Source: Oryzias latipes
Lineage: Eukaryota > Chordata > Actinopteri > Beloniformes > Adrianichthyidae
Direction: 5' to 3'
NCBI RefSeq assembly: GCF_002234675.1
Contig: NC_019859.2
Span: 4,433,240 to 4,497,239 of the forward strand
Length of the DNA stretch: 64,000 bases
Numbering within the stretch: the first letter of the stretch is position 1; the number at the start of each line of letters is the position of its first letter. Below, piece by piece: positions 7,701-56,952 of this stretch. The notes below the pieces were generated by a model that was not told where the DNA came from, did no database searches, and saw nothing but the letters and a program-made list of their open reading frames with translations. Made by a program: the position numbers and the translations under genes.

Positions 7701-10700
7701 AGCTATGGAGAAACTGAAGAAGGAAAAGCACATGATGGCACTCACCAACACATATGAAGCCCTTCAGTTTATCTTGTGAGTAACTTCACAGCTAGTGAGA
7801 GAGCTGTTCAAACTTGATATTGTTGTGAAGTGAAAGCTACACAAAGCTTTCTGTGTGACGAGTGTCACTGATGTTGGTTCCAGAACCAACCTGTTTGAAA
7901 ACAAATCAGCGGGTGCCACCCCTAATGCAACTCAAGTTCTGGTTCTCATCACGGACGGAGATCCCAGTGATCCTCACAAGAAAGCAAGTCTTAAAACATA
8001 TGAGGAGAAGAACATCATTCGGTTTGTCATCGGGGTAAGTTATAAATAAAAAAATAGAAACGTGTGTTTGTTGAATTAGTGGAGAAGCTGTTTGCTAAAA
8101 TTTGTAGGAAACATCAACAGTCTAGTAAATGTGTGAGATTTATTGTCCTGAAGATATCAAATGTCTGACCCATTATGGTGTTTTGGCAAAGTTATCATTT
8201 CAGTTTTTTGGTTTAAGGTAAAAATTGACAGCATGGAGAAAATTAAACCCATTGCTTCAGAGCCAAAGGACAAAAATGTTTTTAAAATTGAGGACTATCA
8301 GGGCCTTGATGGGATTTTAAAAAACTTCCAAAATAAGATCTTCAACATGGAAGGTAGTTTTTTTTTCATTTTCTTTTTTTATACCTTTTCTTCAAGTTTG
8401 TATCTGATCTTCCATCCTCCATCAGTAAGTAGTAAGTAACCCGGCGTGATCTTTTTCAGGGTCCAAAGCTGCTCTGGCAGGAGACTTAACTAATGAAATG
8501 TCTCAGAGTGGATTCAGTGCTGCCTATTACAGGGTGAGTGATGCTAAATACTACCAGCACTTTTTAATGATTCCAAGAAAACATCAATGTGGACATATTT
8601 AGCATAAAAGGGCATGAAATAATTTTTCCAAAAGGTAAAAAAAATGCCTAAGCAACCCACCCGTGTCGTCAACTACAAGAGGCAGAAAATAAAACACTTT
8701 ACCATCAGATATTTGATAATGGTTTCGGTAAATCCTGTAAATGTAATGTTGTATGTTGCACAGTTTATTAGCAATGCTACCATCGTTACTAGATTAGCAT
8801 AAAAGATTCATATCTAAACAGAAAGCCTGCTGGCTTGACACCAACACCCACATCACCATAACGACAATCAAAACAAAATGATACTTGTCAAGAACAGATT
8901 TGTAAAACCACATAGAAACCAAATTCAATCACCAAAAATCCTATATCAAGCATTTTCACGATTCATGACTTCATACATTTTTGCATTTTAATTAATATTT
9001 GATATAAAATAGATTTAATAGAACAATAACTGATGGTGCACCTGTTAGGACTGGGGTGCCTGGCCAATGCCACTTATCATCTTTTCTTTCCATCCATTCA
9101 CATTAAAAGTGTAACCTGTCCAACAACCAGAAAACATTTATCCTCACATTTCCCAGACATTTTTATCTAAACCTACAGTACTTTATGATCACTCGTTACA
9201 ACTGGAGGCAAAGTGGAGTAAAAATGTCTTGATTAAGAAACAATAACTATCCAACCTGGGATGAGAGGTTTGTGTTCTAAGTGGGCTTTACCATTGACAG
9301 GACACCCTGGTCCTGGGCTCAGTGGGATCAAACAGCTGGCGTGGTTCTCTGGAAGAGCGTCATCATCAACATGAAAAACAGATTTTAGATTCATACATGG
9401 AAATGGACTCCTACATGGGTAAACTTTCCACATTCTGCTTAGTTAACATGTGCCTGTTTGAAATTATCTTTAATGTTTAATATCAGTCTATCTTGGTGGT
9501 CAATAATTAGGATTCAGCTTATCCACTGGAGAGAGGAATGGAGTTCCTCTGTATTTCTCAGGCGCTCCCCGGTTTCAGCACACTGGACAGGTTGTGGTTT
9601 TCAATCGAACTGGAGGACAATGGATGGTACAGCAGAGACTAGAGGGGAGCGAGGTAACTCCATAAAATTATACCTACTGGAATTCAAATTGAGAAGGTAA
9701 AATTACTTGTGCTCGGCAAATGACTTGATGCTGCTTGGAAAGTTTTCTGAAAAAAAAAAAGTTCACTCACTTTCATGATTACTAAGAGGAAACCACTGAA
9801 CTTCCTGGCAACACCACAAACCTGAGCATTAACAGAAAACTTCAGAAAGCACTTCAATTGCCTAAAGCACCACTAATACAGACATTATATTCCTCAGGTT
9901 GGTTCCTATTTTGGCGCGGAGCTCTGCACTGTAGATATTGATTTGGATGATAGCACTGACTTTCTGTTGGTGGGAGCTCCAATGTTATACCAGCCTCTAC
10001 AAAAGACAGAGGGAAAAGTCTATGTCTACACTCTGACTGATCAGGTGGGTCATCGTGAGACTGAAAGGGTCAGCATTATTGACACACTGATTTTGAAACA
10101 GAGGACATTTGTTTCCTGTAGTTGCAACTGGAAATGAAGCTGAATGTGACGGCTCCATCCATGGGGAGATTTGGCTCCACCCTAGCAAGTCTCGCTGATC
10201 TGAACGGAGATGGACTCAGAGACGTAGCAGTTGGCGCCCCTCTGGAAGACGATAACCATGGAGCCGTGTACATATATCTCGGAGATCGAAAAAGTGGGAT
10301 ACGCCACACCTTCAGCCAGGTGACAAAAAGACTGAGTCTGAAACATCTACTTAAGCAAATGGATCAATGTGATCAATTTTGTTTCAATCCTCGATTTTAG
10401 TTTAATCTTCAGGGGACAAACACAAACAAATTCAGAGAAAAGTTTGAAGGGGATGCAACAGAAATTCAGCAAAAAATGTCCAATTTCAAGATCCAGCCAA
10501 GACAACTGAACTGTTAATGTTTTTGAAAAATCACATTGATACAATCTCAGCTGCAAACTAGCACTTCATAAATCAACTAAACTGAATTGATAAGAGGCCT
10601 TGCGATGCACAGCGAACAGCCCAGGGTACCTCACCCTTCATCAGCTGTGTTGGAACCAGCATTTCTGTGACCCACTATAAAAAGAATGCAGGTTTAGACA

Positions 10701-20977: not shown

Positions 20978-21529
20978 AATAAAAATATACCAAGTATCTT
21001 AAGATGAAATGTTACTTGACTGAAAGCATATCCAACAGCATTAAATAACAGAAGGTTTTAGTATTAAAATGTTTTTTATGCAGCTAAATGTGTCTCCGTC
21101 CAAGTTTGGCTTAGACATTCTGACACCATTGAAAGAGGGCGGAGCCAAAAGTTCATGTACGAAACTGTCAGTAGACCAGTCAGGCTTGTTGCGGCACACA
21201 GCTAATATATTCGTTTAGATATTTTCCGCCTATGATATTTCGGTTTTTTTTATACATGCGCGATGTACGTACTTCCAAGTGTTTCTTGTGTTCGCCATTC
21301 GGCAACGTGCGCAGATGTCTGTCGAGGGGGTCCGCCAACGGGTTTTTACCTAAATTCTGTTTTGAGCTGTTCAAAATTTTTGGTCTCCTGAGAATTACTA
21401 AGTTTGAGTACGTAACATAGTTTATTGCAAGAAATTTGTGCCTTTCCACGACCGTTCCATGTGTGCCTATTAGACTTTTCAAGTACGTCCCACTGATGCA
21501 TAACTTTTATGTAAGGGCTAATGGCCGAC

Positions 21530-23565
21530 TATTTTCAGAGAAATCAACAGCAAGTGGTAAAGCACCTGGTCTTGATGGCATCCCATCAGAGATTCTGAAA
21601 TATGGTGGCGAGAAGTTGTGTGAATGTCTGTTAGATCTATTCAACAGATGTCTTATCTCTGGTACTGTGCCACAAGACTTCCGAGATGCTTTAATTGTCA
21701 CCATCTACAAGAAAAAGGGTGACCATGCAGATTGCGGAAACCATCGGTGTATGTCACTACTGGCCATAGCTGGAAAAGTGCTTGCAAAGATTGTCCTGAA
21801 TAGATTAAAGACCATTGCTGAAGTACTTCCTGAGTCTCAGTGTGGTTTCCGGGCTGGTCGTTCCACTTCAGACATGATTTTCACTCTGAGACAGCTGCAG
21901 GAGAAGGCAGCAGAACAGCACCAACAACTTTATATAGTCTTTGTAGATTTTACAAAGGCTTTTGATACAGTCAATCGTACAACTCTATGGAAGGTCCTTG
22001 AAACTTATGGTTGCCCAGACAAGCTTGTCAACATTATTAGGCAATTTCATGATGGAATGAGGGCACAGGTTTCAGTTGGTAGTGAACCCAGTGACACCTT
22101 TCCAGTTAAACATGGCCTGAAGCAAGGCTGTGTTCTGGCACCAACCCTCTTCTCTCTATATCTTACAGCTGTACTGGATACTAAATGGTAAATGGCGTAT
22201 ACTTATATAGCGCTTTCTACCTTCTTACGAAGGCCCAAAGCGCCTTACAGTCACAGTCCCATTCAGCCATGCACACACACATTCACACACTGGCGGCGGC
22301 TCCGCTGCCGAACACTGGCGCCAACCTCCCACCAGAGGCAAGGTGGGGTTCAGTGTCTTGCCCAAGGACACTTCGACACATGGGCGTGCAAGGCGGGAAT
22401 CGAACCTGCAATCTTACGATCATGGGTCGACCGCCCTACCGCTGCACCACGACCGCCCACTATGAAAGAAGGCCCAAACAAGGGTGTCTTCATCCGCACA
22501 AGAACTGATGGTAAACTTTTCAACCTCGCCCGTCTTCGTGCCCACACTAAGACACAGGAGATGTGTGTCAGAGAACTACTTTATACTGATGACTCAGCCC
22601 TTGTAGCTAGTAACGCATCTGATATGCAACAGGTTGTAGATCGCTTTTCCTTTGCAGCTGAGATGTTTGGATTGAAGATTAATATCTCTAAAACCGAACT
22701 ACTGTATCAGCTTGACCACATTATCCAACAAACACCCGGAGACGATTATGGTCCATGATGAACCACTGAAGTCAACAAAGAGTTTTCTTACCTGGGCAGT
22801 ACCTTAACTAACTCAAACTCAGCTGATCTGGAAGTGGAACGGAGAATACTTTCTGCCACTAAGGCCTATGGTGCACTACAAAAGAGACTGTGGAGTTGCC
22901 ATGAAATCAGTACAAGTACCAAAGTGAAGGTATATGCAATCGCAGTCATCCCCTGTTTGCTATACTCCATCGAGTGTACCACACTCTACCGCAGACATAT
23001 CAAGGCTCTAACACGACTTCAGCTTCGCCACCTTCACTTCATTCTCTACATCAAGTGGCAAGATCGTATCCCAGATGTTGAGGTTTTGAGACGTGCCAAC
23101 ACAGTTAGCGTTGATGCCCTAATAACATCTGCACAACTTCGATGGGCAGGGCACGTGTGTCGGATGCCCAACAATAGATTACTCAAAGCAGTCTTCTACT
23201 CAGAACTTTCTCAAGGAAAAAGGAGCCGCGGTGGACAGACACTACGCTATGAAGATGTGCTAAAGCGACACATGAAGAGAGCAAGCATCCCACACTACAA
23301 CTGGGAAGAAGAAGCCCTACAAAAATCCAAATGGCGTGCAACTTTAAAGGAAGCCATGACAACCATTGAAGACCAACGCCAACGTGAATACCAACAGGCA
23401 CATTACCGGCGTCACTCCGTAGCAACTTCAACCGATTTCAAATGCTTGAAATGTGATCGCTTCTGCAGATCCCGTGCTGGACTAGCAGACCACATGAGAG
23501 CCTGTCATTTTTAATCCTCAAACTCAAGACAGTCAACTTCGACATACGAAGGACAGCCATACATA
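21530..23565 (+). mobile_element. 5'-truncated LINE with reverse transcriptase and C-terminal zinc finger
   Basis: The element is flanked by a perfect 11-bp duplication, taatggccgac, at 21519-21529 and 23566-23576. The reading frame starts inside the RT domain (GKAPGLDGIPSEILKYGGEK), followed by GFRAGRSTSDMIFTLRQLQE, VDFTKAFDTVNR, HGLKQGCVLAPTLFSLYL and the catalytic LLYTDD. The C-terminal part has RWAGHVCRMPNNRL and a C2H2-like finger (CLKCDRFC...HMRACH), with a stop codon at about 23512. A SINE splits the frame at 22183-22458, and one frameshift lies around 22720-22760. Otherwise the frame is open, so the copy is fairly young. The clade is uncertain (I/Nimb- or RTE-like). It is antisense to the CCCH gene. 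Confidence 0.85.
22183..22458 (-). mobile_element. tRNA-derived SINE nested in a LINE
   Basis: On the minus strand it starts GGGCGGTCGTGGTGCAGCGG with A-box tggtgcagcgg and a perfect B-box ggttcgattcc, and ends in repeated ccatttaccattt. It interrupts the RT frame between ...LTAVLDT and MKEGPNKG; the trinucleotide act is repeated at both junctions. The same family occurs at 5281-5544, and its 3' end matches 28537-28620. Confidence 0.9.
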
Positions 23566-24519: not shown

Positions 24520-27500
24520 TCAGTCGAAAGCAGAACAGTTCAAAGTCTTAAAGAGGTCCTTAAAGGAGCTCACTTCCGCACTGCCCGTGATCCCGTCTCC
24601 TTCTTCTGTTGTTTGCCGAGTGTGGCCCTGCATCAGCGGCGCCGCTGGTTCTGACCGGGCCGTGCCAGACTTTCCCAGCTGAAGGGGGGCCGTACCGGGA
24701 CTGCAAAGGCCGGCTGTCTGCTGCTCCGCTTTATCTGAAGTCTGGTTACAGGAAGCTGGAGTCTGATGGGCAGAAAAAAAAAAATGAATGAAATGAAGAA
24801 AGTTGAGAGGACCAGAGGGGCCCTCCATTCATACCTTTAAATGGAAAAGTTATCTACTTTAAACACTGAAACTTCATCAAGTTAGCTGTTATTCTGCCCA
24901 CCAAGCTCTATTTATGTTTTTTCTGGAATTTCAGCATTTACCTCGGTCCATTACGACGGTCTGGATCAAAGACTTCATCTAACAAAATTTACTGGACCTT
25001 TTAAATTTAAACAGTTGCCCCTTCAGGCACTGATCATCTGAATTTGTTGGTAATTAAACACAAACCTTTTTCTTATTCTTTTGCCTGTTTTTCCATTTCT
25101 GTTTTTGCTTGAAAGAACCACATTCTGTGCTGCTCTTTTCCATTTTCATCCCTGAAAAAAACAACAAAATCAAGCATAAATTCAGCAAAAACTATGGAAG
25201 GACATTTTTTCTCAAACATCCAGTAAGAAAGACGAATTGTCAAAACAATTTGGTCCTTGCGGTCCAAAACTGCTGTGGGACAGAAAAATGCACTGACCTC
25301 CCGGTTCTGGGCTCAGACCGTGGTTCTGTTGCTTAGTGTCCTCCTGGTACGGACCCAGACTCACAAACAGGGATTTCAGAACTGAACCGTCAGACTTTTC
25401 TGCACAGAAGAGAGTTTGTTATAAAACCTCAACATCTTAAAAATGACAGCAGCACACTCTCACCTCTGGGGGGCGACGCATCCGGCCCCTCCTGCTGAGT
25501 CCGACATGCAGAATTGGTTTCAGAACTAGAGGAGCATCTGGGAGACTCCATCTTCTGGGGAGTTTGCTTTGCATCAGCGCTGACCCGACGAGGCAAAGGC
25601 AACGCCCTGGTGGGCCGGGTGTCCCTGGCAGGCAGCGGTCTGCAGGGAGGGGGGGTGGGGTGCGGCGCCAGACGCTGTGAGCGCCCACCCAGAGGAGATG
25701 CAAAGGAACTGTTAGATGTTGGGATCCCTTTTGTTTCTAACGACCGTTTGGGTTTGTTAAAGCCCTGAAGGTCAGACGGAGCCTTCACACAGGCGGGTTT
25801 AGGCATTGCACCGTCAGTCAAACCCACAAAACGGCCAGAAAAGAGACTCTGTTGGGAAAAGCCATCCCGGGTTTCAGAGGAGGGGTCAAGTTTCAGGTTT
25901 GACTGCGTGTTCTGGGGCTGATGTGGAGTTTCAGAGGCTTTGGCCTGAACAGAACTTGTTGCAGGTCCATTATTAGAGCCTCTGACACCAACAGAGCGCT
26001 TCATTAAAGATAGAAAATCAGGTTGCAGAACAGAAACATGAGGTTTGAGCTTTGGAGGGTGTTTGGGAGAACTTTCAGTGGGAGAAGTTACTTTAGGAAG
26101 CTGACTGTTTCTGTATCCAAATGGAAGAGAAGACGAGCTTTCTAGCATGTCATCCTGTGACGTCTTCATTTGAATCGTGGCGTTTTCCTTTAATTGTTGG
26201 TTTTGGGACCAAAGTGGACGATCTGTGATTTCCTTAGGGAAACTTTTTGTGTTGTCAACAAGTTCTGAACCTTCCATGGATTTAAAAGACCTGAGGACAG
26301 CATCCACAGAATATGGAGCTTCCATCGGATTTACCGAGCTGGAGGGCGTCTCTGAAGAAGACGGGGGGACAGAGGGAGATGTTGCATCTTGACTTTGGGG
26401 TTTTGTATAGAAGCTAAAAAGCGGTTTGAAAAGCTGAGGCCCGAGAACCGCCTCCACGGAGTAACAAACGGGCTCCTTCTGCTCCAGACTGGACAAAGAG
26501 GGACTGTGAGGCGGATCAGCTTCTGATCCAGGATCCGGCTCTTCGTTCTGACCAAGAGATGTTTGCTCCTCCACATCTGTGCTGTTATAAAAACTCGGCC
26601 TGAAAGAATAAAGACAAAGAAAAACTAGGAGGAGCTGCATTTCCAGGAGAATATGCAGGGTTGAATGCTATAATGATGAATGAAACCTAAAGGGTAATAA
26701 ATTGGCAAAAAAAATAATAATAAAGAAATAATCAAAGTTGACTATAAATAAAGTGAAAATAGCACAATAATGAAAAATAAATTTTTGTGAAAAATGCCAC
26801 CGCCAGGTATCTGCCCCAAGCATTCCCCATGTATTTCTATGGAGGCAAAAATCCTGGAATATTTGTAAAAGTTCAAGGATTTTAAGGCCCAAAAGTCATA
26901 GCTTGTAAAAAGCTAATGGAGCTGAACTTTTAATAGTTGAAAGATTGTAGAACGAGTTAGGCGGCAAAAAATGGCGGAAGATACTATAATGAAGAAAAAT
27001 AAACAGGAAAACAACATTCAACCAATCAGGTGAAAGTTCATCCTGACTGATGCAAAAGTAACAGTTAGGATTTGCATACCTGAGAAGCTCCACAGGAATA
27101 TCAGGAGGATCATTTGGTGGAGGAAATTCAGACATGTTGACGTTTGCCGGCTCTCCCGAAGACCCCTGTTCAGATTTTTTTCTCTCTTCCCAGATTTCCA
27201 TGTCCCGTTTTATCGCCTGCAGCGAGAAGCCATTTCAGCAACCTTTTTGACAACCTTTCCCACAGTCTGACCTTCACAAACCTCGTCCAGCAGCTTCTTC
27301 GTGAGCTCTGTGAGCGGCTCGTGGGAAAACCTGCAGGAGTCTTGCTGGAGGCACTTTCCTCTTTGATGGAAGTACTTGCACGGGAACGATTGTGCAGCAG
27401 AGTTCAGGAAATACGCAACAGTCTGTAGTTTGGTGCACCGATATGACGCCTGACAAAAACACGGCTGAGAAGGATATTGTGCATGTACGGACAGCTCTCT

Positions 27501-30187
27501 CCTTTTATACAACATCCCACCACATAAAATTTGCACACGGCTTTAATGAGGTCGTTGCAACTCTGGACATGCTCCAGCTGGCAGGTGTCGGCCTGCAGGG
27601 GGGGAGAAAAGATGAGAATCGTAAGAGAGGACCGCAAACGTAGAGAACGGGAGGAAGGGCTGGTCATTTTCGTGCCTTGACGCATTGCCCCCGAAGGAAA
27701 TGTCGACACAGCAAGCGTCCGTCCACCTCCAGGGCGTTCTGCTCCTTGAACTCCTCACTCATAAACACGGGCTTCTCCTGCGGATCAGGAAATATCAGCG
27801 GAAAAACGCAAAGGAAAGAGCTCCATCACAAAGCAGAAACACTTAGACACAGTTACGTCTTACCTGAGCAAAGTCGTTTCTGCTTCTTTCCCATTTTCTT
27901 GGCATATGTTTTCTGTCATCCCAGTTATTGTTTCTGCCTCTGCCATTGTTCCAACGTGGACCGTTCCAACTGTTTCTTTGCTGTTTGTGGCTGTAATTAC
28001 TTTTTTCTGGCGGACCTTTGTGATGCCTGCTGCCACGGTTCTGTGGTTTACCCTTTTGGCCACGTCTCATTTCCTCGGCGTGGCGTTCAGAGCCTCGACT
28101 TTGATAGTATTTGTTCTTAGCATGACTGTCTTTGAAGGCATCACCAGATGTGTTGGTCTGGTGTCTTCTTTTCTATAAATAGAAAAAACACAAATGCTGT
28201 AAATCTGATCAAAGAAACTCGTTTTTCCATACATTAAATACTTTATTTATGGTAAAAAAAAAATTTTTTGTGACTATCTGTATCTACTTTTGATTTTTAC
28301 CTTTCCATTAAGATTTATTTATTTGACTATTAGCTTTTATTTGTCATTTATTTTACTCTTTATATCATTTGTTTTAACTCCAATCATTTCCACACTGTTC
28401 TCGTGGAACGAGGTCGTTGCAGTGGAACCTCCCGGGTCTGGGTGCTTGCTTTGATCAGGGGGTGTCCCATGGTGGCATCATGACTGGCTTGTGGACAGAT
28501 CCCCAAAACTATTTCCTCACATCTTCTGGGTGAATGGGTCTGTGACTGTAAAGCGCTTTGTCCTTGTAGGAAGAAAGGCGCTATACAAGTATACGCCATT
28601 TACCATTTACCATCAAGCCAGGTTTCTACGACAGCGTTTTAGGGCAGAGGTGGGCACTGAGGGCCGCATTCCTGCATGTTTTCCAGCATACCCTGCTCTG
28701 GCATGTTCTAATTGGCTGGACACACCTGAACCAGGTAATCAGCCATGAGTAGGGCAAGATTATCTGGAAATCATGCAGACACACCGGCCCTCGAGGCCTG
28801 GAATTGCCCACCCCTGTTTTAGGGCCACAAAAAAAAAAAAAGGAAATTTACGAGATTTTAAGTCGTAAATTTATGAGATATAAACTCGTACATTTATTAG
28901 TTTTATCTTGTAAATTTACGAGATAAAAACTCATAAATTTACGAGATTTTTTGTCGTAAATTTACGATTTAAAATCTCATAATTTAACAGTTATGACTTT
29001 CTTTCTCGGAAATTTACGACTTAAATTAAAAATTTCGTTTTTTTTGTAAACTGGTTCTAAAACTCCGTCGTAGGTTTCCACTTCGATTTCAATTCGATTT
29101 TTATTTAAATTCATTATTTATGTTTTGTGATGTTGGTGGGAACCGGTTGAAGACATTCTGTGTATTTTATCAATAGTTTTTTAATTGTTTTAAGTCTGTA
29201 AAGCATTTTACTGTCGTATGAAAAGTGCTTTATAAATAAAGTTGGATTTGATAAAGTGGACTCAAAGACCACAATTGAACAATCACCCATAATCCTTTCA
29301 AGAGTTTGCTTTATTTGGTCAAATTAAATTAAAAAAAAATCTTTATGTATAAGATTGAGATTCTACATGCAGGAACAACTTAAAATTTAGACGTTTGAAG
29401 ATTATTTTAACTAAATTTGATGCCAAATTTCAAAGCCATTCCAGCAAAAGGCCTCAAGCACGTCCCCTCCACTGCTGTCAAACAACGATGACCATTTTCT
29501 CCAACCAGGTTGTATGAAATTAACACTTCCATATGCCATTTGTGAGCCAGCAGTCATTGGCAGAGCGCCTGTCGGTGTTCTGGGATCTCAGCGTTAAAGT
29601 TTGTGATGGTTGTTTTCAACTCAAACTTTTGGCTTGGAGCTGACATTATTTTCTCTGTGGCTTAGATGTCTCAGACAGAGAAAACAACATTATATTTATA
29701 GCATCATATGTATTTTCACGTACTGAACTAACATTTTGAATTAAAGGAATAAAAACAAAAATCATGCTTTTATTTTGGCAGCAAGAACGATCTCAATGAT
29801 GCGTTTACCAGAATAAAAGCATGGTGACTTAAAACTGCACATAGAAACGTATTAATACTCTTCTCATAACAGGCAAAAACAGTGGACTCAAATCAATCAA
29901 TGTAGGTCATTAAACTTCACTTTTTGAACTCACCGTCACACCGGACCCGGGTTGCTTCTGTGCTTTCCTCTTCCTCTCTCCTCCCTCTGTCCCGCATCTA
30001 AAATTAAATAGAAAAACAGTAAACCAATTAAAAAACAACAAACAAACACGATGATTGAAAACTTCAGACTGCATTTCCATTAAAATAAAATGATTTTTTA
30101 GTACCGGTTTGTGGAGTCTACTTGACAGGGAGCCTTAACAGCTTCGTTGAAACAAGGCAGGCCGGAGAACAGGTTTGCAAAAGCCAT
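24520..30187 (-). CDS. zc3h8: CCCH-type zinc-finger protein, ZC3H8/ZC3H6 group
   Basis: Eleven coding exons on the minus strand: 30105-30187, 29934-29997, 27864-28172, 27676-27777, 27478-27592, 27282-27391, 27080-27216, 25464-26599, 25298-25399, 25066-25151, 24520-24762; total 2,487 nt, 828 residues. The start MAFANLFSGLP resembles the ZC3H8 N-terminus. A basic R/N/K-rich region is followed by three CCCH fingers: CRHFLRGQC...CQLEH, CKFYVVGCCIKGESCPYMH and CKYFHQRGKCLQQDSCRFSH, then PLTELTKKLLDE as in ZC3H4/6/8. A long low-complexity region (exon 8) and a C-terminal [15 protein letters not shown] recall the ZC3H4/ZC3H6 tail. Mammalian ZC3H8 is part of the little elongation complex for snRNA transcription; a role here is inference. 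Intron 27593-27675 is GC-AG and 27392-27477 has U12-type AT-AC signals. Whether it is the ZC3H8 or ZC3H6 orthologue is not settled. Confidence 0.8.
28380..28620 (+). mobile_element. SINE/LINE 3' part sharing the tail of the tRNA-SINE family
   Basis: The end, gactgtaaagcgctttg ... ggcgctatacaagtatacg followed by three catttac units, matches the 3' end of the SINEs at 5281-5544 and 22183-22458. The upstream part (28380-28535) does not match their body. It may be the partner LINE's 3'UTR or another SINE subfamily. Confidence 0.6.
28645..28816. mobile_element. hAT-type MITE, 172 bp
   Basis: The ends cagaggtgggca and tgcccacccctg are inverted repeats. An exact 8-bp duplication, ttttaggg, flanks them (28637-28644 and 28817-28824). 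It lies in the second intron of the CCCH gene. Confidence 0.9.
28830..29035. repeat. Quasi-palindromic tandem repeat of (cg)taaatttacgagat units
   Basis: Units of the form taaatttacgagat and atctcgtaaatt, some in inverted order, recur at 15-30-bp spacing across about 200 bp. The array lies next to the hAT MITE in an intron of the CCCH gene. Confidence 0.75.
29100..29250 (+). mobile_element. LINE 3' tail fragment
   Basis: The stretch gtctgtaaagcattttactg ... aaaagtgctttataaataaa gttggattt is the usual form of a fish LINE 3' end. No coding part is attached. The remaining intron sequence 29260-29930 shows nothing recognisable. Confidence 0.45.
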
Positions 30188-31395: not shown

Positions 31396-34063
31396 ATGAG
31401 CCGCCTGGCCCCTCTCGCCCTCGTTCTGCTCCTGCTGGGCCTCTCCATCCACAGTGGGCTAGGTCAGGACGCCGGGGATCCTGCAGCAGCAACGGCCCAG
31501 CCTCCACCTCCGTCCGGCGCAGCCTCTGACGGGACCCAGGAGGATGACGAGAGCTGGGGAGTGAACTCCCTCAGAGGCGGTTTTGAGGCCGTCAGCGGCT
31601 ACTTTGACTCCATGCTGGAGTTCATGGGTGGACGAGATGGCGTGTGCCAGTATCGCTGTAGATTTGGTGAGTCTGCAAGAGGGTTATGATACTGAACACA
31701 GAGTTGGGATTCAACTTCATATGGACCCATTAAGGAGCCTCAGTGAACTAGGTCATTTTGATGTGTCCGTAGTTTCTTTGGCCTTTAGTTTATGGCCTCT
31801 CTCCACGTATTTTTAGGATAAAATTCTACAAAAATGACAAAAAGTAAATATATAGTCCATCTGACTGATAACTACAAACCTCCAGAAATGTTTTTCAATT
31901 TTATGTTATTTAGACAAACTAAAGATCAAAAAACGCTTCTCCAAACCAATTTGCTGCTCTCTAAAATTCTAAGTCCCGTTGTGAACGATAGGATTTACCC
32001 TGTAGGATCTCTGTCCTTACTATCTGGCAAACGGACTGTGGCCTCAGGGCGAAAGGAAGGGTGACGTGCAGCCGCTGACACACACATGGAAAAGGGTTTG
32101 AACCCAGCGAGAAGCCAGTGTTTCCACAAATGCAAACAGAGTTTTTTGGTTTCAAGCTGACACGGTTCTTAAAGTCCAGATGTCCTGATCAGAATCCTGA
32201 TCTTTCAGGTAAAGCTCCTCTTCCCCGTCCCGGCTTCAAGATGCCCGAGCCGGACGGATGCAGCTCCTACTTCTTTGGCCTTCCCATTCCAGAGGGGGTA
32301 AGTTTCTGCTGTCCAACCAAAAAAAGTTAGAACTAGCCTTAACTTGTTGATGCTGGTTTACACCAAACGTATGATGGTTTTAAAAAAAAAAGGACGGTAA
32401 AATGGAGCCAAACATTTACCAACAGTTTCATAATTTAGCTTTAAATTTAAAGTGTCTCCTCCTGTCCTGAACTCTCAGCGGAAGAACCTCCAAACAGATA
32501 AAAATGTTTCCTAGTTTTTGCAAACTAGAAAGGCAAAATTGTTTTTGCAGAAAACGTACAATTCTTTAAAACATATTTTTGGATCGAATTATAAAACAAA
32601 GGCCATTTACTGTTTTGAATTAGTACAATTTTTCTCAACATTCTCAGAAAAATAAATTTTCTTTATGGATTTTAAGTTAACTAAAATACTAAGCGGGGGG
32701 GATTTGTGTTTGTTTAATAACTATCAAGATATCCTGTCCCTGTTACCAATTAGAGAGACAGATATTGTCCCATGAAAACAAGAAAACATCAATTTAGAGC
32801 AGACAACTGATTTAAGTGAACTTACATGCAGTAAAAATCTCTGATCTGCACATCTGCCATAAAACTGTCTGAACAACTAAACTATTATATTGAGATTTAA
32901 ATGAAAAATATAAAACAGAATTATTTGATAACTTAAGATTAATTTTTGACGTGCTTGTAAAATGTTTTCTTTCAGCCACAATTAGGAAAATAAAAGCTTA
33001 CCGTAGTTAAAAGCAAGTTGTAAGGTATTCCCAAAATAATTAAATAAGATTTTCTTGTTAAAAAACAGTCTTTGATTTTAAATCAGAATTTTCTACTGTT
33101 TTCTTTATAAATCATCACAAAGTGTGAATTTCTTTTTATGCAAGTAAACAGCGAGTCTCTGCTTTCAGCTACACTCAAACGTCCAACTGTCTCCTGATTA
33201 CAAACGGCTTTTGATTTGCTTGATTTGATCAGGAAACTGATCAGAACCAGTATGGAAAGTGTCTAAATCTATTTACAAACACATTTACTTAACTCTTATA
33301 TTGCTTTGGGTCAAAATTTGAGTTAAATATATAAAAGACCAAACTTGCTAAAACTAAAAAAAGATAAGCAAAAGTATTTCAATCTCCAAAAATAAAAGAT
33401 ACAGTTGAACCGAAACTTAACTTTAAATTAAAACTGGTTGCTCTCACAGGTTTCCTGATGGCATCCTGTTAACCTTTTGTTTTTTCCAAATTTGTCGTCT
33501 AAATTTTGGGAAACGAGAGAAAAATGAAGATCAGATTTTTTTATTCTATTGATATTTTCCTGTAAAACTCAAACTTTGCTTTTGCAGCCTGCAGGATTTT
33601 CAATGTAATTTGATGAAACGCTCTCTTGTCCCCCTCTTTGGAGTCAGATTGACGTTGGCATTCCCGCCATGACCAAATGCTGCAACCAGCTGGACACGTG
33701 TTACGACACCTGCGGCTCCAACAAATACCGCTGCGACTCCAAGTTCCGCTGGTGCCTCCACAGCATCTGCTCAGACCTCAAGAAAAGCCTCGGCTTCGTC
33801 TCAAAAGTCGAAGGCGAGTTCGTCTTTCAGATCCTCAAACTTATTATTGCACCTCGAATAATGATGCATGTTGATCATTTAGTTAATGTGAGCCCCCCTC
33901 ATCTGTGCACTGAACCTCCTCCTCTGTGCTGCTCTCATCTCCAGCCTGTGAAACTGTGGCGGACACTTTGTTCAACACCGTGTGGACTCTGGGCTGCAAA
34001 CCCTACATGAACAGCCAGAGGGCAGCGTGCCTCTGTCCTGGAGAGGAGAAAGATGAACTCTGA
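31396..34063 (+). CDS. pla2g12b: Group XIIB secretory phospholipase A2-like protein (catalytically inactive type)
   Basis: Four exons: 31396-31666, 32209-32297, 33648-33813, 33945-34063; 645 nt, 214 residues. A signal peptide ([18 protein letters not shown]) leads a secretory-pathway protein. The PLA2 core reads [16 protein letters not shown]: the catalytic His of active group XIIA enzymes (CCNQHD) is Leu here, as in PLA2G12B, while the Asp remains. [20 protein letters not shown] and [15 protein letters not shown] are family signatures, and the tail EEKDEL looks like an ER-retention signal. PLA2G12B acts in the ER of liver and intestine in loading lipid onto lipoproteins. Intron 3 starts with GC (33814-33815), the only junction that keeps the frame between SKVE and ACETV. 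The start is the Met before the hydrophobic stretch. Introns are otherwise free of recognised genes. Confidence 0.93.
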
Positions 34064-37162: not shown

Positions 37163-40100
37163 TTAGCTCAGCTCCAGGGACAGCGAGTCGTCTGGCTGTG
37201 AGGGCCGGTAGATCTGCTTAGCAAGCTTTGCTTTCTCATTAAACGCTTGAAGCTGGAATAAAAACAAAAAAAACAAAACTTTTAGGGCCTTTTGGAGACA
37301 AAAACACATTCTGTAATCTCTTTGCTGCTGTTTTTAAGCAACGTTTTTTTATGTTTTCTCTTTCTTTTAAAGAAACAGTCTTGAACGTGGACGTGTATCC
37401 GACTTCCTCCCTTAAATTTTGTACAACGACGCATGAAGTGGGAGGTTTACTGAAGTTTGATCTGCCCATAGACGACATTATGTCTACGTTTCACTTACAG
37501 GAAAGCCAATCAAAAAGATATATTATTTTAAAAAGGACATTTAATTAAATACACATTCGAAAAATTTCCCCATCAGAGATGTTTGAAAGAAATGCAATAT
37601 TTGGCACTTCCTGGTTTGGATCAGACACGCAAAGCAGGATGGGAGTTTGCTCAAAATCCCAAATGCAAACCTCTAGGAAAAAACGAGGAGTTGATCAGAA
37701 GTATTGACACTAAAATGGCGTTATGATGAAAAACTTGAATAAATCCTGCCTTCTGCAGGGTTAAATGCCATTTATGGCAAATCTTTTATTAGCCAAATGC
37801 ATAGATGTTGAATTTGTTTAGAAACAATCTTATTTAATTTGATAATATAAATCAAATCAAATCCAAAAGCGCCTGTAGTTTTTAAAATGCATATAAATGT
37901 AAATTGATGAAACACAAAAACAGAAATGTGGTTTTGAAGCACAGCTGTGTGAGGAACAGAGGCGGAAGTGGACCAAAGACAAGAAAATGAAAGGAGGGGA
38001 AAAAAGAGTCGAAAAAAACTTTTCCGAATGTTTTGATGGATTTTGTCTGGAATGTTGGAAAGCAGACGGGAACCTCCCACCTTTTTCCTCAGGTTCGCCT
38101 TTATCTCCTCCTCTGTCAGCAGCTGTGGTTTCCGCTCCTCCGACGGCTTAGTCGGAGCGACACGGCCCGCCTGGGAAGTTCCTGCCGGGGAGGTCACCGT
38201 TGACGGTGCCTTCGGCGCCACGGATGCCTTCGGCGCCCCGGAAGCCTGTGGCGCTGCAGGCTGCTGTGATGTCTTGGCCTTGGTCGTCTTGCTCGATGAA
38301 GAAAGTGGCTTCGCTCCAGGTTTGTCTCCCTTGTCCTTCTTTTTACGAATTCTTTTTCTGTCTGGTTTTTTATTTTTCTTCCATGGTCGATACTTTTTTT
38401 TTGGCTTTGACCCGTTGGAGGACTTTGTGTTCAAAGAAGCCTGCGTGTCGACGACTGTTAGGAATCGAGACCTGCTGTTGGCGTCGCAAGGAGACAATCC
38501 GGTCTGACCTTCAGACGCGGAAAGGTCGAGACCCCAAAGCGGGGCCGCGCTTTCCAATCCACACTGAGGGTCGGTCCACGCGGGGCTGTGAAATTCTGCT
38601 GGTTGGCAGGAATGCACGTCGGGGGGAGGGGCGAGCGGCGTGCTGTAGCTCTGAGGAAACGAGCAGTAAGGGTACGCCACATCTCTGGTGGCGTTGGCGA
38701 GGTCACTGGGGAAACGTGGGTCTTGGTACAAACTATAATGTGGGAATGCAGCAGCAGCAGAAACGTGAAGGTAAGGAGATGCTTCCTGTCGGTTTCTGTC
38801 GCTGCCCACCGGACCTTCAGCATCTTCTTCTTCTGGCTGCATTACACTCATTCTGTTTCGTTCGTGAGAGCCGCCATGTTTCAACTTTTGATCTTTCCTG
38901 TGGCGATGTGGCGAGCGGCTGCGACTTCTGGGGGAGGAGGAGGAGCCGCTGTGCTCCCCGCTGACCCGCCTGCTCCCGGTCTTCCCTCCTTGCGTGCGAT
39001 CCGGTTCTTTGCTCATCTTCTCTGCTGCCATGTTTAGCTTCAGAGTTCTACAAATGTCCTGCAGCTGCTTCAACGCTTCCTCTGAGCGTGGCAGTTCTTC
39101 ATCCTCCAACTTCCTTTTCTTCCTCCTTTCCAGAGGAGACGCCGCGCGGTTGTCGGAGTTCACGCTGCAGAGCCTCTCGTCTTGTGCGGTTTCGGGTAGC
39201 GACCACTCTGGACGGTCGGTCCTTGACTCTGCACTGCTGGTCTGGATGCAGCCCGGCAGAGGAGCTCCGCTGTTGGAACAGGAGCTCCCCCTCCTGAGAG
39301 GCTCCTCACTCTTGTTCCGCTCCACAGAGGGGAGAAGGGCGGGAACTACCTCCTTACTATCCATAACTATCTTACTGAGGAGGTTGATGTCCACTCCTTT
39401 GTTCAGCACGCTGAGGAAGCGCTCAAAACCTTTCTCCACTTTGCTCTCCTCGTTTATGGACGAAGAAGAACTTTGTCTGGGAACAGGAAGCTGTGAAAGT
39501 TCCAGCAAACGTTAAATGTTAGTTAAATATTTGATTTTATTTTTACGACTTGAAATCATTTATTTTGAAGCACAGAAAAATATTTATTGAAGTCATTTTT
39601 GTAAAGTACTATGAGATTTTTTTTTCAAGTTTCCTCACTGGATGAAAAACGATAGAAAGGAACGACAAAAACACACAAACTGACTTCGACATTTGTTCTC
39701 ACTCAGGATGGGAAAGGTTTCTGTGTGTGGCACTAAACTTTGGAACGGGTTAAGTAATGAGCTCAAACAATGTACAAATATCCAAATATTCAAGAAAAGG
39801 TATAAAGAAGCTCTGATTTCATGATATGAAGACAAGAAGAGTTAAGGATCGACAGCTGTTTGAATAATTCCAATTATGCCTTTCATCATTTCTGTAATGA
39901 GTTTGATAAAACTGTGTAAATTCTTTATTGCTTTGACTACAATGCTTTAAAATCAATCAATCAATCAATGTACCTTTTCATTCAGCACGCTTGAATCCGC
40001 TGCGTTGTTCAGGTTCCTAACGGCGTGGAGGTCGCGCCGCCCGCTGATGTCCTCGTCTGCAGGTGACGTGTGGATCAAGCTGGGAAAGGGTGGGGGCCCA

Positions 40101-47371: not shown

Positions 47372-50300
47372 TCACTTAATCACCTGCAGGCAGCGCGGCC
47401 GCGCCTGCGGCTTGGCTTTAGTGTTTGGGAAATGGTTCAGGGTTTGGACCGTGTTTACGGCTGACGGCGGGAAACGCGGCGAGTTCACGAGTGGCGGGAA
47501 AAAGTGTCCAGCTGGATGGTGTGCAGGGGGGTAGATGCTTGGGGGGGCCACAGGAAGACCGGCGGGAACGCCAGAAAAAGGAGGCAGGAAAAAACCCGGT
47601 CTGACAGGAGCCAAGCTTGGGGGCAGGGCAGGGGAAGGGGGCGGGTACAAAAACTCTGACCAGTTCTTGGGCGGGTACGTGGGGATAGGGAGCGCTGGGG
47701 GCGGCTGAGTCGCAGCATACGAGGAATTCGGAAAAGAGAGGTGCAGCGAAGCCGGACTTCCGTGACAGTTGGACCTGCTGTCCTCGTATCTGTACTCGCC
47801 ATAGTCGGCATTCTGCTTGGGAGGGGGCTGATGCGCTTCGTCCCTCTGAGAACTTAACGAGTCTTTCTTCGTGTCCGGGCTGCGGGTCAGCGGGCTAAAA
47901 CTGGACCGGCTGGAAGACCACGATCTACTTCGGCGTTTTGAAGCAAACGCTTGTCTCGAGCTCCTCTCCTGACTGGCGCCCTGGCCGCCATCTTCGTCCT
48001 TCTTCCCGTAGAGACGCTCCTGGATCCGGCTGGACATTTGGCCGAGTTCTTCAAACCCCAGATCTAGACCGATAGCTTGGAGAACGCCCTGCATTTGCCT
48101 CCGCTTCTGCTCCTCCTCGGGCGTTAGAACCCTCTCCGCCACGGGAGGCTTGGACGCGTCTCTGCCGTCGGTCCTCGGAAGACACTTTTCCGCGTCGGAG
48201 CTCCGCTCTGGACTGAGCGACCTCTGCTGAGGCTTAGCGGGAGCGAGCGCGTGAGATCTCTCCCCCCAACCTCTTGGTTCCTGGTTCTGTTGCTTTCCAG
48301 CACGATCCACGGTTTTCCCAAAAGGGTTGGGAGACGCACGCTGATCCGAAACTTGAGTCACGATCTTGGTGAGGTCGTCCACATTCACGCCCTGGTTGAG
48401 AACTTCCAGAAAGCGCTGGAAGCCCGTGGAGGACTTGGCCTCGTTGCTCTTTGTGGCGTCGTCGGTTGTCAGAGCCTGACAGGAAGCAGAAGGGAAGAGT
48501 CGTGAGATCCTCCGTGTTCTATTTTTAGAAAGCTCTAAAAGAATGAGCAGCCGTTGAGTTCCCTGAACGTCTAAGATCTTATGGAGACAATACTTCAGTC
48601 ATAAACCCAGAATGCTGCTTTTGGCTAAATGTTTCTCTGAGGCAGAGTGTGATCACTCCAGGATAAATGCAGAACTTCAGGTTTTTATTCGCTTTACCTT
48701 CAAACTTAGGATGCAGCAGAGTGTCTGGAAACATCTCGTAGGTAGGGGATAATAAAGACAGAACCAGCTCCACAGAGATTTCCCTCTGGTCACGAGCTGC
48801 ATTTTATCTGTGTTTTCTTGTGATTTAGTTGCTAAGCAACAGCTGTATTGCAGGTCTGCTAAGAATTATCCACATGGATAAAGTTCAGTGTTTTTGGACC
48901 AAAAACAGCACCTGAAATCCTTTTGTTTTCCTTTCTAAAATGGACAGTGCCTCTTCTAATCCGGTTCGTCTGAGTGTGAATTCTGGTTGTGTTTACTGAC
49001 CTGAAACCGCTCTTCTGTGGTTCCTTCGCTTCAACGCGGTTCACCTTTAGTGGTTTTGCTGTTTTCTTTTTTACATCTTACAATGCACTGTGTTCTGTAT
49101 TCTGTTCACAGAGCTAAAAACTCTGTTGTAATGTTTTAGTACAACTTTGGTTAAGTCAATGTCAATTAAGTTTGCCGTACACAAAAGCTAGTTTTGCAGA
49201 AAAAAGGTGCACACAAAGAACAAAAAGCTTCACAAGAAAAACTTTCCATCAACCCCTCTGACACCCACCTTTTGGCCCCTCGAGGAATTCTGGGTAGTGT
49301 AGTGATCCCAAATTAAATGTTTTGATTGCTAAACCTTTTAAAATAAGAGATGTGGCCTCTTACATACCGTAACTCTTTGACCGTTCAACACGAATCCGCT
49401 GATTCTGACGCAGACAAAAGCGCCTTTCATATCTGCCTTTCATCGATATGAACATAAAGTGTTGCATGACGTTGCAAAACTGCATTCGCTGCAACAAAAC
49501 CAGCTGATTTACATGGATTGCGTTAACACTTGAGCACAAGGCTGTTCTCCACTTCGTAAATGGTTAAATAGTCGTGGTGCTCTACAGAATGTCATCGCTT
49601 GAGCTCGATGTTAAAGAGTTTATGCTTTCTGTAATCTGATGGACCTCCAAAGAATTCACATCCATTTAGTCCAGACTGAGCCCTGAACCACGTCTGTATT
49701 CAGACTGCTGTTGCCCGGAGATTTCTGTCCCGGGCCAAAGTTTGTCAACAAAACCATGTGACTAAAGATCTCTGCCGTCATTGGTCAGGAATTACGCAAT
49801 GGAAGTTCTGCGCTTTTTAATCTTTGTCGGAATAGTTCACAGATTCAAACTTTGTATTTTCCAGACTAACTTTGAACATCTGTATCACGTCAAGTGCAAC
49901 GTGCTTTACTGTTGCTTTGGTACAGCGGAGGCACGCTGCAGGGCGGTTACTGAGGAGATGTCGGCTAAGAAGGCACTCTGATACGCGTTTATGATACAAA
50001 GATTGTTGGGAAAACAGTGAGAAGCAATGTGTATCATGATAAAAGTTGTTGTAATAAGACTGCTGTGTCTCAGTGTTGCTCCACTGCTGTGTTTGTATCC
50101 CATAATGCCCGGCTACGGTGGCCATTTTGGCCCAGTTGTTCCCCTCAGAGGAAGGAGCGCATTGAGACTGAGGAAAGTCAGAGCTAACCGGAGCTCAGTC
50201 CAGATTGGAAACAAACAGAGACCGCCTCGAAAGATGGGTCCGAGAGCGAGTCCTGGTTCCAGACCAGGGTCCACTTGGGTGGATTCAGACTGAACATTTG

Positions 50301-54433: not shown

Positions 54434-56952
54434 ATGAAGGTGAAGATCAAGCAGTGGAACGGAGTTGCGTCCTGGTTGTGGGTGGCCAACGATGAAAACT
54501 GCGGCATCTGCAGGATGCCCTTCAACGGCTGCTGTCCAGACTGTGAGTTAACGCGCCCGCGTGCAGATGTTTAATTCCTGTGAAGAAAGAAGTAGAAATC
54601 CCACCATCGGTTTAAAGAAATCTTTGTGATGTTTATGTTTCCTCGTAGCATAAAGGCAATTGAGCCGTAATGGCGTTTAAAACCGTATTTGATAGAAAAC
54701 CTTGTAATTTCACATTTACTCTGTCTGTATTACCTAACAAACTACTTACGACTTAACAATTTTTTTTATATAACTTTATTGAACAAATGCAAGTATACAA
54801 CATAAAGAACAATCAATGCAGTATACAACATACAATCAATATACAACACAAACAATGTTAAACAGCCAGGGGAGTCGATTCATTAAATATTTGCAGAGAG
54901 TTACAAATTTCAATAGTTCTGAGAGCTTTTTTGTTGGAGGAAAAGGATATTGATTTTATGTAAAAAGTTACATCTTTAATGAATTGTGGGAAGTATGGTG
55001 TTTTATTAGTAAATTTACATTTATGTATGTAGAATTTTGCCAGAAGAATTAATAAATTAATTATAAAAAATATCTTTTGTTTTTTGGGGGTCCTGAAAAA
55101 ACAAAGTAATACATTTTCCCATTTCAAGGAGAAATCTTTGAAGACATGAATAATGATGAATCTACTGAACTCCTTCCAAAATCTCCGTGTGGACAAACAG
55201 TGCCAGAAAAGATGAATTACTGTTTCTGGGTGATCTCCACAGAAACTACAATCAGTATTAATATCTTTTTTAAATTTTATCATATAATGTTTGGCAGGGT
55301 AAATTTTATGGAGAATTTTAAAGGATACTTCTTTTACCTTATTTATTATTAAATACTTATGAGGGATCGTCCAGACTGCTTTCCAGTTGATATCTGGAAC
55401 AAATTGATTCCAATAATTTAAAATATACGGGGGAGCGGTATAAATCTTTTGAAATAATCTGCGTATTTTTATATTAGTAGTACGCCCATATGAGAAGCAT
55501 ATTTTTCCTACCGGTGACTCATCCGCATTGGATATTGTATTTTGATTAGGTATCAAATTATCAGTGTTCTTAAATAACATTACTATTCCTGAGGGGATAG
55601 CCTTCTGCACCATTGAAAACTCTTGTAAAGTAATAGGTAAATTATACTGTGATAGGAATTCGTTATAGTTTAACAGCTGCCCCTCCTTATTAAATATTAC
55701 GACTTAACTAATATTTGAGAATCAGAGATGTGACTACGCATGCGCGAACATTCTACTTAGTCTTGTGTTTGCCATTGTCACAAGTACAATGCAATGTAGC
55801 CGTTATGATACATAATTAAAGGGAAAATAACAGGACCACCTGCAGAAATGCTGTTTTCCTCTAGGTGGGTCGGTTAATAAATGAAGTTGATTAGTTAATT
55901 AAATTGCCTCTTCGCTACAGATGGGATGTATTTCATCCCAATCAAAGATGGATGGATGGATGTAATTAAAGTCCTGATTTTAACTAGATGACTGTGATTT
56001 GCTATTTTTGTGAATTATTGTCTCATCAATAAGAACTGGATTATGGCAACAATGCAAAAGAAATATATAAAAAGAAACAATTCATTAGGGGGGGGGATTG
56101 TATAAAATAAATGAGCTCACCTTTAGGCAGCAAATCAAATTGTGCATGACTTTAAATTATCATTATACTAAATGAATCAAATGTGATTTGTGTGTATTGT
56201 ATGCATTACTGCGAAAAAGTCTCTTTGATTATGAATAATTAGACTAAAGCAGCCAGCATTGTCTTGTCATCACTGTTCATTTTATTCTTTATTTTCTAAT
56301 CAATGTATTACTATATCTGAAATGGGTTTGATATATACATGTGTGTTGGTAGTTGTTTTTATTGTATTCAATCATTTAATCAATCAAATGTTCTCGTTTC
56401 ATCCTGTTTAGGGACAGCAGATGTGAAATAGCATCATGGCTAAAATTGGACATAATTACATCTTTTAGTCTCTGGACATATGTTCAGTAATGTGTCCATA
56501 TAAAATAAATACAATAAGATAAAATATATTTATCTTATTGTATTTATCTGCAGTAAATATCTGCAGACTTAAGAAAATCAGCTGTAAACATTCATTTATC
56601 AAAAGAGATTCCCATAAACAGATTCATGACACGTTTATTGTTGAGGATGAAGTCAGTCGGTCATGATGTGGAGATCAACACCATCACTTACAGGAGTTCG
56701 GATTCTTATTTATAAATTGGTGATGTAACATGCCCCATATAACTTTGACTTCGTGTCCATCAGCACACCCCAGCTCGAGTTAAGCCATGCTTCTCCTCAT
56801 CTGCAGGTAAGGTTCCCGGAGACGACTGCCCGCTGGTGTGGGGTCAGTGCTCCCACTGCTTCCACATGCACTGCATCCTGAAGTGGCTGAACTCCCAGCA
56901 GGTGCAGCAGCAGTGTCCCATGTGTCGCCAGGAGTGGAAGTTCAAAGAGTGA
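54434..56952 (+). CDS. anapc11: Anaphase-promoting complex subunit 11 (RING-H2)
   Basis: Two exons, 54434-54542 and 56807-56952, encode 84 residues, the usual length of the family. The protein is the catalytic RING subunit of the APC/C ubiquitin ligase and recruits E2 enzymes with the cullin subunit APC2. The start [16 protein letters not shown] and the zinc ligands [15 protein letters not shown], then [13 protein letters not shown] and CPMCRQEW, are diagnostic. The single intron splits the codon for Cys in PDC. AATAAA signals lie at 57231-57236 and 57278-57283. The intron holds a truncated L1-type LINE and another LINE tail. It converges with ppp1r27 and lies near p4hb, as in human 17q25.3. 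Confidence 0.97.
54758..55696 (-). mobile_element. 5'-truncated L1-type LINE in the anapc11 intron
   Basis: The minus strand encodes the C-terminal part of an ORF2-like protein of about 250 residues without stops, including [20 protein letters not shown], the knuckle [18 protein letters not shown] and [11 protein letters not shown]. This layout is typical of fish L1/Tx1-group elements. A perfect 12-bp duplication, ttacgacttaac, flanks it at 54746-54757 and 55697-55708, and an A-rich tail (plus-strand t-run) is at its 3' end. The open frame suggests a fairly recent insertion. Confidence 0.9.
56380..56520 (+). mobile_element. LINE 3' tail fragment
   Basis: The blocks gggacagcagatgtgaaata and aaataaatacaataa match the tail type at 36810-36935. 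It lies in the anapc11 intron. Confidence 0.45.

Follow-up and report, generated by a model that had tools for sequence, protein, structure and literature searches.

A probable U12-type AT-AC intron between CCCH fingers 2 and 3 of a teleost-like ZC3H4/6/8-family gene

An 86-nt minus-strand segment (27392..27477) between the second and third CCCH zinc fingers of a teleost-like ZC3H4/6/8-family gene is almost certainly a functional U12-type (minor-class) AT-AC intron in phase 1, judging from its splice signals, an enumeration of alternative splice sites and the alignment of the spliced product with a solved human relative (PDB 2CQE). All positions refer to the window, the whole 64-kb stretch of DNA that was analyzed. 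We infer that the minor spliceosome uses the predicted sites in cells: base pairing of U11 with the ATATCCTT donor and of U12 with TTCCTGAAC would lead to excision of the 86 nt by the minor spliceosome, joining fingers 2 and 3 with the four-residue linker typical of the family.

The 5' splice site (ATATCCTT, 27470..27477, minus strand) matches the U12 consensus RTATCCTT at all eight positions, and the branch site (TTCCTGAAC, 27402..27410, minus strand) matches TTCCTTAAC at eight of nine, the mismatch being a G for T at position 6, immediately 5' of the branch-site adenosines. Counted back from the last base of the intron, these adenosines (27404 and 27403) are at distances of 12 and 11 nt, and the intron end reads CAC, with the AC of the 3' splice site at 27392..27393 (minus strand). 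An earlier, sequence-only reading had claimed an 86-nt minus-strand intron with an exact U12 donor, an 8-of-9 branch site and an AC end 11 nt beyond the branch adenosine; its coordinates, donor and branch-site match were all exact, as was the distance when counted from the second adenosine. Either branch-site adenosine is usable and the optimal branch-to-end distance is 11–13 nt (excerpt of PMC3584512), a range that includes the distance from each of the two. At donor position +9 the intron has C, not the T of the consensus.

In its donor and branch site, its AC end, the distance between branch site and end, and its phase, this intron is like the vertebrate U12-type AT-AC introns catalogued in U12DB, IAOD and MIDB, while the T-to-G change in the branch site and the very short length set it apart from them. 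Zebrafish has 662 known U12 introns, in 612 genes (excerpt of PMC9501576), and 22 percent of the U12 introns of this species are of the AT-AC subtype (PMC7367187, Table 2). U12 introns are also biased against phase 0 (excerpt of PMC7367187), with which the phase 1 position agrees. On its sequence features, the intron is very likely a real and ordinary addition to the known U12-type AT-AC class.

The same signals are poorer elsewhere in the gene: each of the nine remaining introns agrees with the U12 donor at 2–5 of 8 positions, and their best branch-like 9-mers (within the last 40 nt), with 4–7 of 9 matches, are 14–32 nt away from the intron end. U12 introns typically lack a distinct polypyrimidine tract, but the pyrimidine fraction toward the 3' end (0.64, versus 0.59–0.91 in the other nine) is not below that of every other intron and does not discriminate between intron classes in this gene. 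AT-AC ends by themselves are no proof of U12 class (excerpts of PMC2831892 and PMC6717393), and excision by the major spliceosome, as for the U2-type AT-AC introns of some sodium channel genes, would produce the same termini. However, the sodium channel introns carry G at donor position +5 (excerpt of PMC2831892) where this intron has C, and its donor and branch site fit U12; U2-type splicing was rejected on the +5 base, and we regard its probability as close to negligible.

The reading frame and protein homology agree with the AT and AC termini. Removal of the 86 nt yields the junction CAC A/AA TCG TTC CCG, in which the joined codon is AAA, so that PYMH is followed by KSFPCK with the frame kept. 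We enumerated AT-AC, AT-AG, GT-AC, GT-AG and GC-AG pairs delimiting introns of at least 20 nt and leaving both fingers open. Fingers 2 and 3 were kept without a stop by 22 end-dinucleotide pairs, and only the AT-AC pair 27477/27392 gave a four-residue linker, which upholds the earlier claim of an in-frame PYMH-to-KSFPCK join with four-residue finger spacing. The spliced product also aligns with human KIAA1064/ZC3H4 (2CQE) as one gapless block of 57 residues (81.3 bits).

An alternative is a major-class GT-AG or GC-AG intron at this position, with the U12 motifs present by coincidence. Two GT-AG pairs do keep both fingers, 27460/27423 (38 nt) and 27454/27423 (32 nt), while no GC-AG pair of at least 20 nt does so. 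Introns of this size would be only about half as long as the shortest of the others in this gene (64 nt), and would leave linkers of 20 and 22 residues, respectively, in keeping with the earlier remark that no GT-AG pair does as well. The 2CQE comparison, which took in the AT-AC and 38-nt products, split the latter into two blocks around a 16-residue insert and scored it at 64.5 bits, about 17 bits lower. For the pieces from the end of finger 2 onward, the zf-CCCH_9 Pfam score was slightly higher for the GT-AG product (51.3 bits versus 49.7 bits for AT-AC), but these piece scores fail to separate the two products because finger 3 is whole in both. If damage to the fingers is allowed, 120 GT/GC-AG pairs spanning 50 nt or more hold the frame open; among the 15 of these that were listed, ten share the best-scoring donor, at 27520 (scored with general splice-site frequencies), and all ten lose finger 2. 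On these enumerations we rejected GT-AG, GC-AG and mixed termini, and a major-class intron here appears extremely improbable.

How often such a set of signals would arise by chance depends on where it is sought. We searched both strands of 200 simulated copies of the window, generated with a first-order Markov model, for an exact U12 donor combined with a near-consensus branch site and a matching end. Such a set spanning at most 200 nt occurred on 8 of these 400 strands; the expected number per window is 0.055 for sets of this size and 0.525 for sets of 60–2000 nt. The window itself holds a single set of 60–2000 nt, and this is the intron at 27477–27392. Over long distances the motif set alone is unremarkable in 64 kb; its position is remarkable. 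At the boundary fixed by homology, the chance of the set is about 1e-8 (9e-9), and that of the donor alone 4e-4, under a first-order Markov model with general consensus words and 13 boundary choices assumed.

The host gene model runs from start to stop codon on the minus strand (24520..30187) in 11 coding exons, its ten introns positioned by splice signals and frame, and encodes 828 residues with matches to CCCH-finger Pfam families. We call the gene teleost-like on the strength of its short introns and the gene content of the region, together with the earlier reading. Read-through of the 86 nt meets a stop codon, as might be expected of an insertion, an assembly error or a decayed gene copy. 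Nevertheless, the exons join as one open frame of 828 residues once the ten introns are removed, and the matched splice signals of the segment sit at the family boundary; we would give such an origin scarcely any credence. Eight of the introns have GT-AG ends, one has GC-AG ends (27675–27593) and one AT-AC ends. A weak donor score for intron 1 (−2.6, general splice-site frequencies) makes the exon 1 boundary less secure.

Around the AT-AC intron, splice signals and frame define coding exon 4 (27676..27777, minus strand), which holds the first part of finger 1, and coding exon 5 (115 nt; 27478..27592, minus strand), which holds the remainder of finger 1 along with finger 2. Coding exon 6 (27282..27391, minus strand), placed by the same evidence and the 2CQE alignment, carries finger 3 and a conserved stretch beyond it. 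Exons 4 and 5 are separated by the GC-AG intron (83 nt; 27593..27675, minus strand; AAG/gcacga ... ctgcag/GCC), which lies inside finger 1 and keeps it: its donor at 27675 is the only one of five listed GT/GC donors nearby that preserves the C-x7-C-x5-C-x3-H spacing. Exon 5 is therefore flanked on both sides by introns without GT-AG ends, GC-AG upstream and AT-AC downstream. Intron 2 of the gene contains a tandem array (28844–28986) of 45-base units, which are rich in AAATTTACGAGATTTTA-like segments. For annotation, the AT-AC assignment sets the gene model right: gene prediction restricted to GT-AG introns would, at this point, omit finger 2, introduce an insert or disrupt the gene.

Translation of the retained AT-AC intron reaches its first stop at a TGA (27404..27406, minus strand), the G of which is the sole branch-site mismatch. 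The stop inside the branch site may be a curiosity only, given that 86 nt shifts the frame anyway. Five further introns lie downstream in the gene model, and with the TGA upstream of them we would expect a retained transcript to decay or else to yield a truncated protein that lacks both finger 3 and the long tail. In zebrafish zrsr2 mutants, retained minor introns are shorter than non-retained ones (median 451 versus 1398; excerpt of PMC9501576), and the 86-nt intron may be retention-sensitive for this reason.

Going by its encoded protein, the host gene belongs to the ZC3H4/6/8 family, with fingers 2 and 3 as in KIAA1064. The fingers match the Pfam family zf-CCCH_9 ("KIAA1064-like") at 2.4e-14, a Pfam scan of the first 375 residues of the spliced protein gave CCCH-finger families, and among solved structures the closest relative is that of KIAA1064/ZC3H4 (2CQE, E 1e-21). 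Human ZC3H4 shares the four-residue linker between fingers 2 and 3 and aligns without gaps over 57–58 residues, and its paralogues ZC3H6 and ZC3H8 likewise have a four-residue linker; these comparisons were made at the protein level alone. Provisional human ZC3H6 and ZC3H8 sequences also align without gaps across the intron junction, which is a lead only.

The paralogue may be either ZC3H8 or ZC3H6. In a comparison with provisional human sequences, the fingers are slightly nearer to a ZC3H6 region (126 bits) than to ZC3H8 (117 bits). The start of the protein, MAFANLFS, resembles that of ZC3H8 (MDFENLFS); BLASTP reported no N-terminal match. The fingers lie near residues 175–250 of 828 and are followed by a long tail, whereas mammalian ZC3H8 is a 34-kDa protein with C-terminal fingers (excerpt of PMC6057032). 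The interpretation given in the sequence-only reading holds in part: the sequence evidence bears out the U12-type AT-AC class and the location of the intron between these fingers, while the gene may be ZC3H8 or ZC3H6.

That reading had also suggested that a protein linked to snRNA transcription would here depend on the minor spliceosome, a claim that now looks weak: the gene may be ZC3H6, and loss of ZC3H8 had no effect on snRNA expression (excerpt of PMC6057032, which cites Hu et al. 2013). The role of ZC3H8 in the little elongation complex is described as unknown (excerpt of PMC5493778), and its eCLIP signal is listed under 18S rRNA and L1 (excerpt of PMC7137325). One could nonetheless imagine that the gene is zc3h8 and that the minor intron ties a subunit of the Little Elongation Complex to U11, U12 and U4atac, whose genes the complex helps to transcribe; the branch-site stop would then be an immediate off switch, and the supply of minor snRNAs would feed back through the intron. 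Such a loop would be comparable to the AS-NMD feedback on U11-48K and U11/U12-65K (excerpt of PMC3584512), in that the output of minor splicing would act on a gene proposed to contribute to snRNA supply and misspliced mRNA would decay. The known cases differ in relying on a U11-binding enhancer in spliceosome genes (excerpt of PMC3584512), whereas only an ordinary U12 intron is present here. This larger feedback idea is speculative, and we consider it very unlikely to be right.

In the literature searched, neither ZC3H8 nor ZC3H4 was found together with "U12-type", and the excerpts examined from papers naming both ZC3H8 and U12 ascribed no minor intron to ZC3H8. Words starting with zc3h are absent from the main text of PMC9501576, PMC2831892 and PMC6717393. 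"Minor intron" and "little elongation complex" co-occurred in the literature only within one reference list, and the combination of "minor intron-containing genes", Integrator and snRNA transcription retrieved no literature. Two sequence collections, both non-fish by description, were searched with a pattern for relatives: one stretch matched among viral contigs and 26 among genome contigs, and none was confirmed. Rfam gave no match at the gathering score across the whole window. If the intron is conserved, a nuclear RNA-binding protein would join the set of genes with minor introns.

Several other features lie in the window. A gene for a group XII phospholipase A2 (PLA2G12 family; 31396–33805, plus strand), matched in two exon-bearing stretches, stands head to head with the ZC3H4/6/8-family gene. 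On the other side is a LINE-like reverse transcriptase (21421–23511, plus strand), with an RVT_1 match of 1.7e-28 in 21421–22188; its frame changes at about 22190–22760, where other repeat-like sequence seems by eye to be present. A second retroelement piece (54861–55703, minus strand) matches zf-RVT at 1.5e-07. An FG-GAP repeat exon (10122–10397, plus strand; 1.1e-10) probably belongs to an integrin alpha gene at about 9.4–19.8 kb, both name and extent being judged by eye. Two long open stretches on the minus strand, 37775–39511 and 47375–48598, had no Pfam match at 0.001; they have a similar motif in common (KGFERFLSVLNKGVD and TGFQRFLEVLNQGVN, respectively) and may represent paralogous genes.
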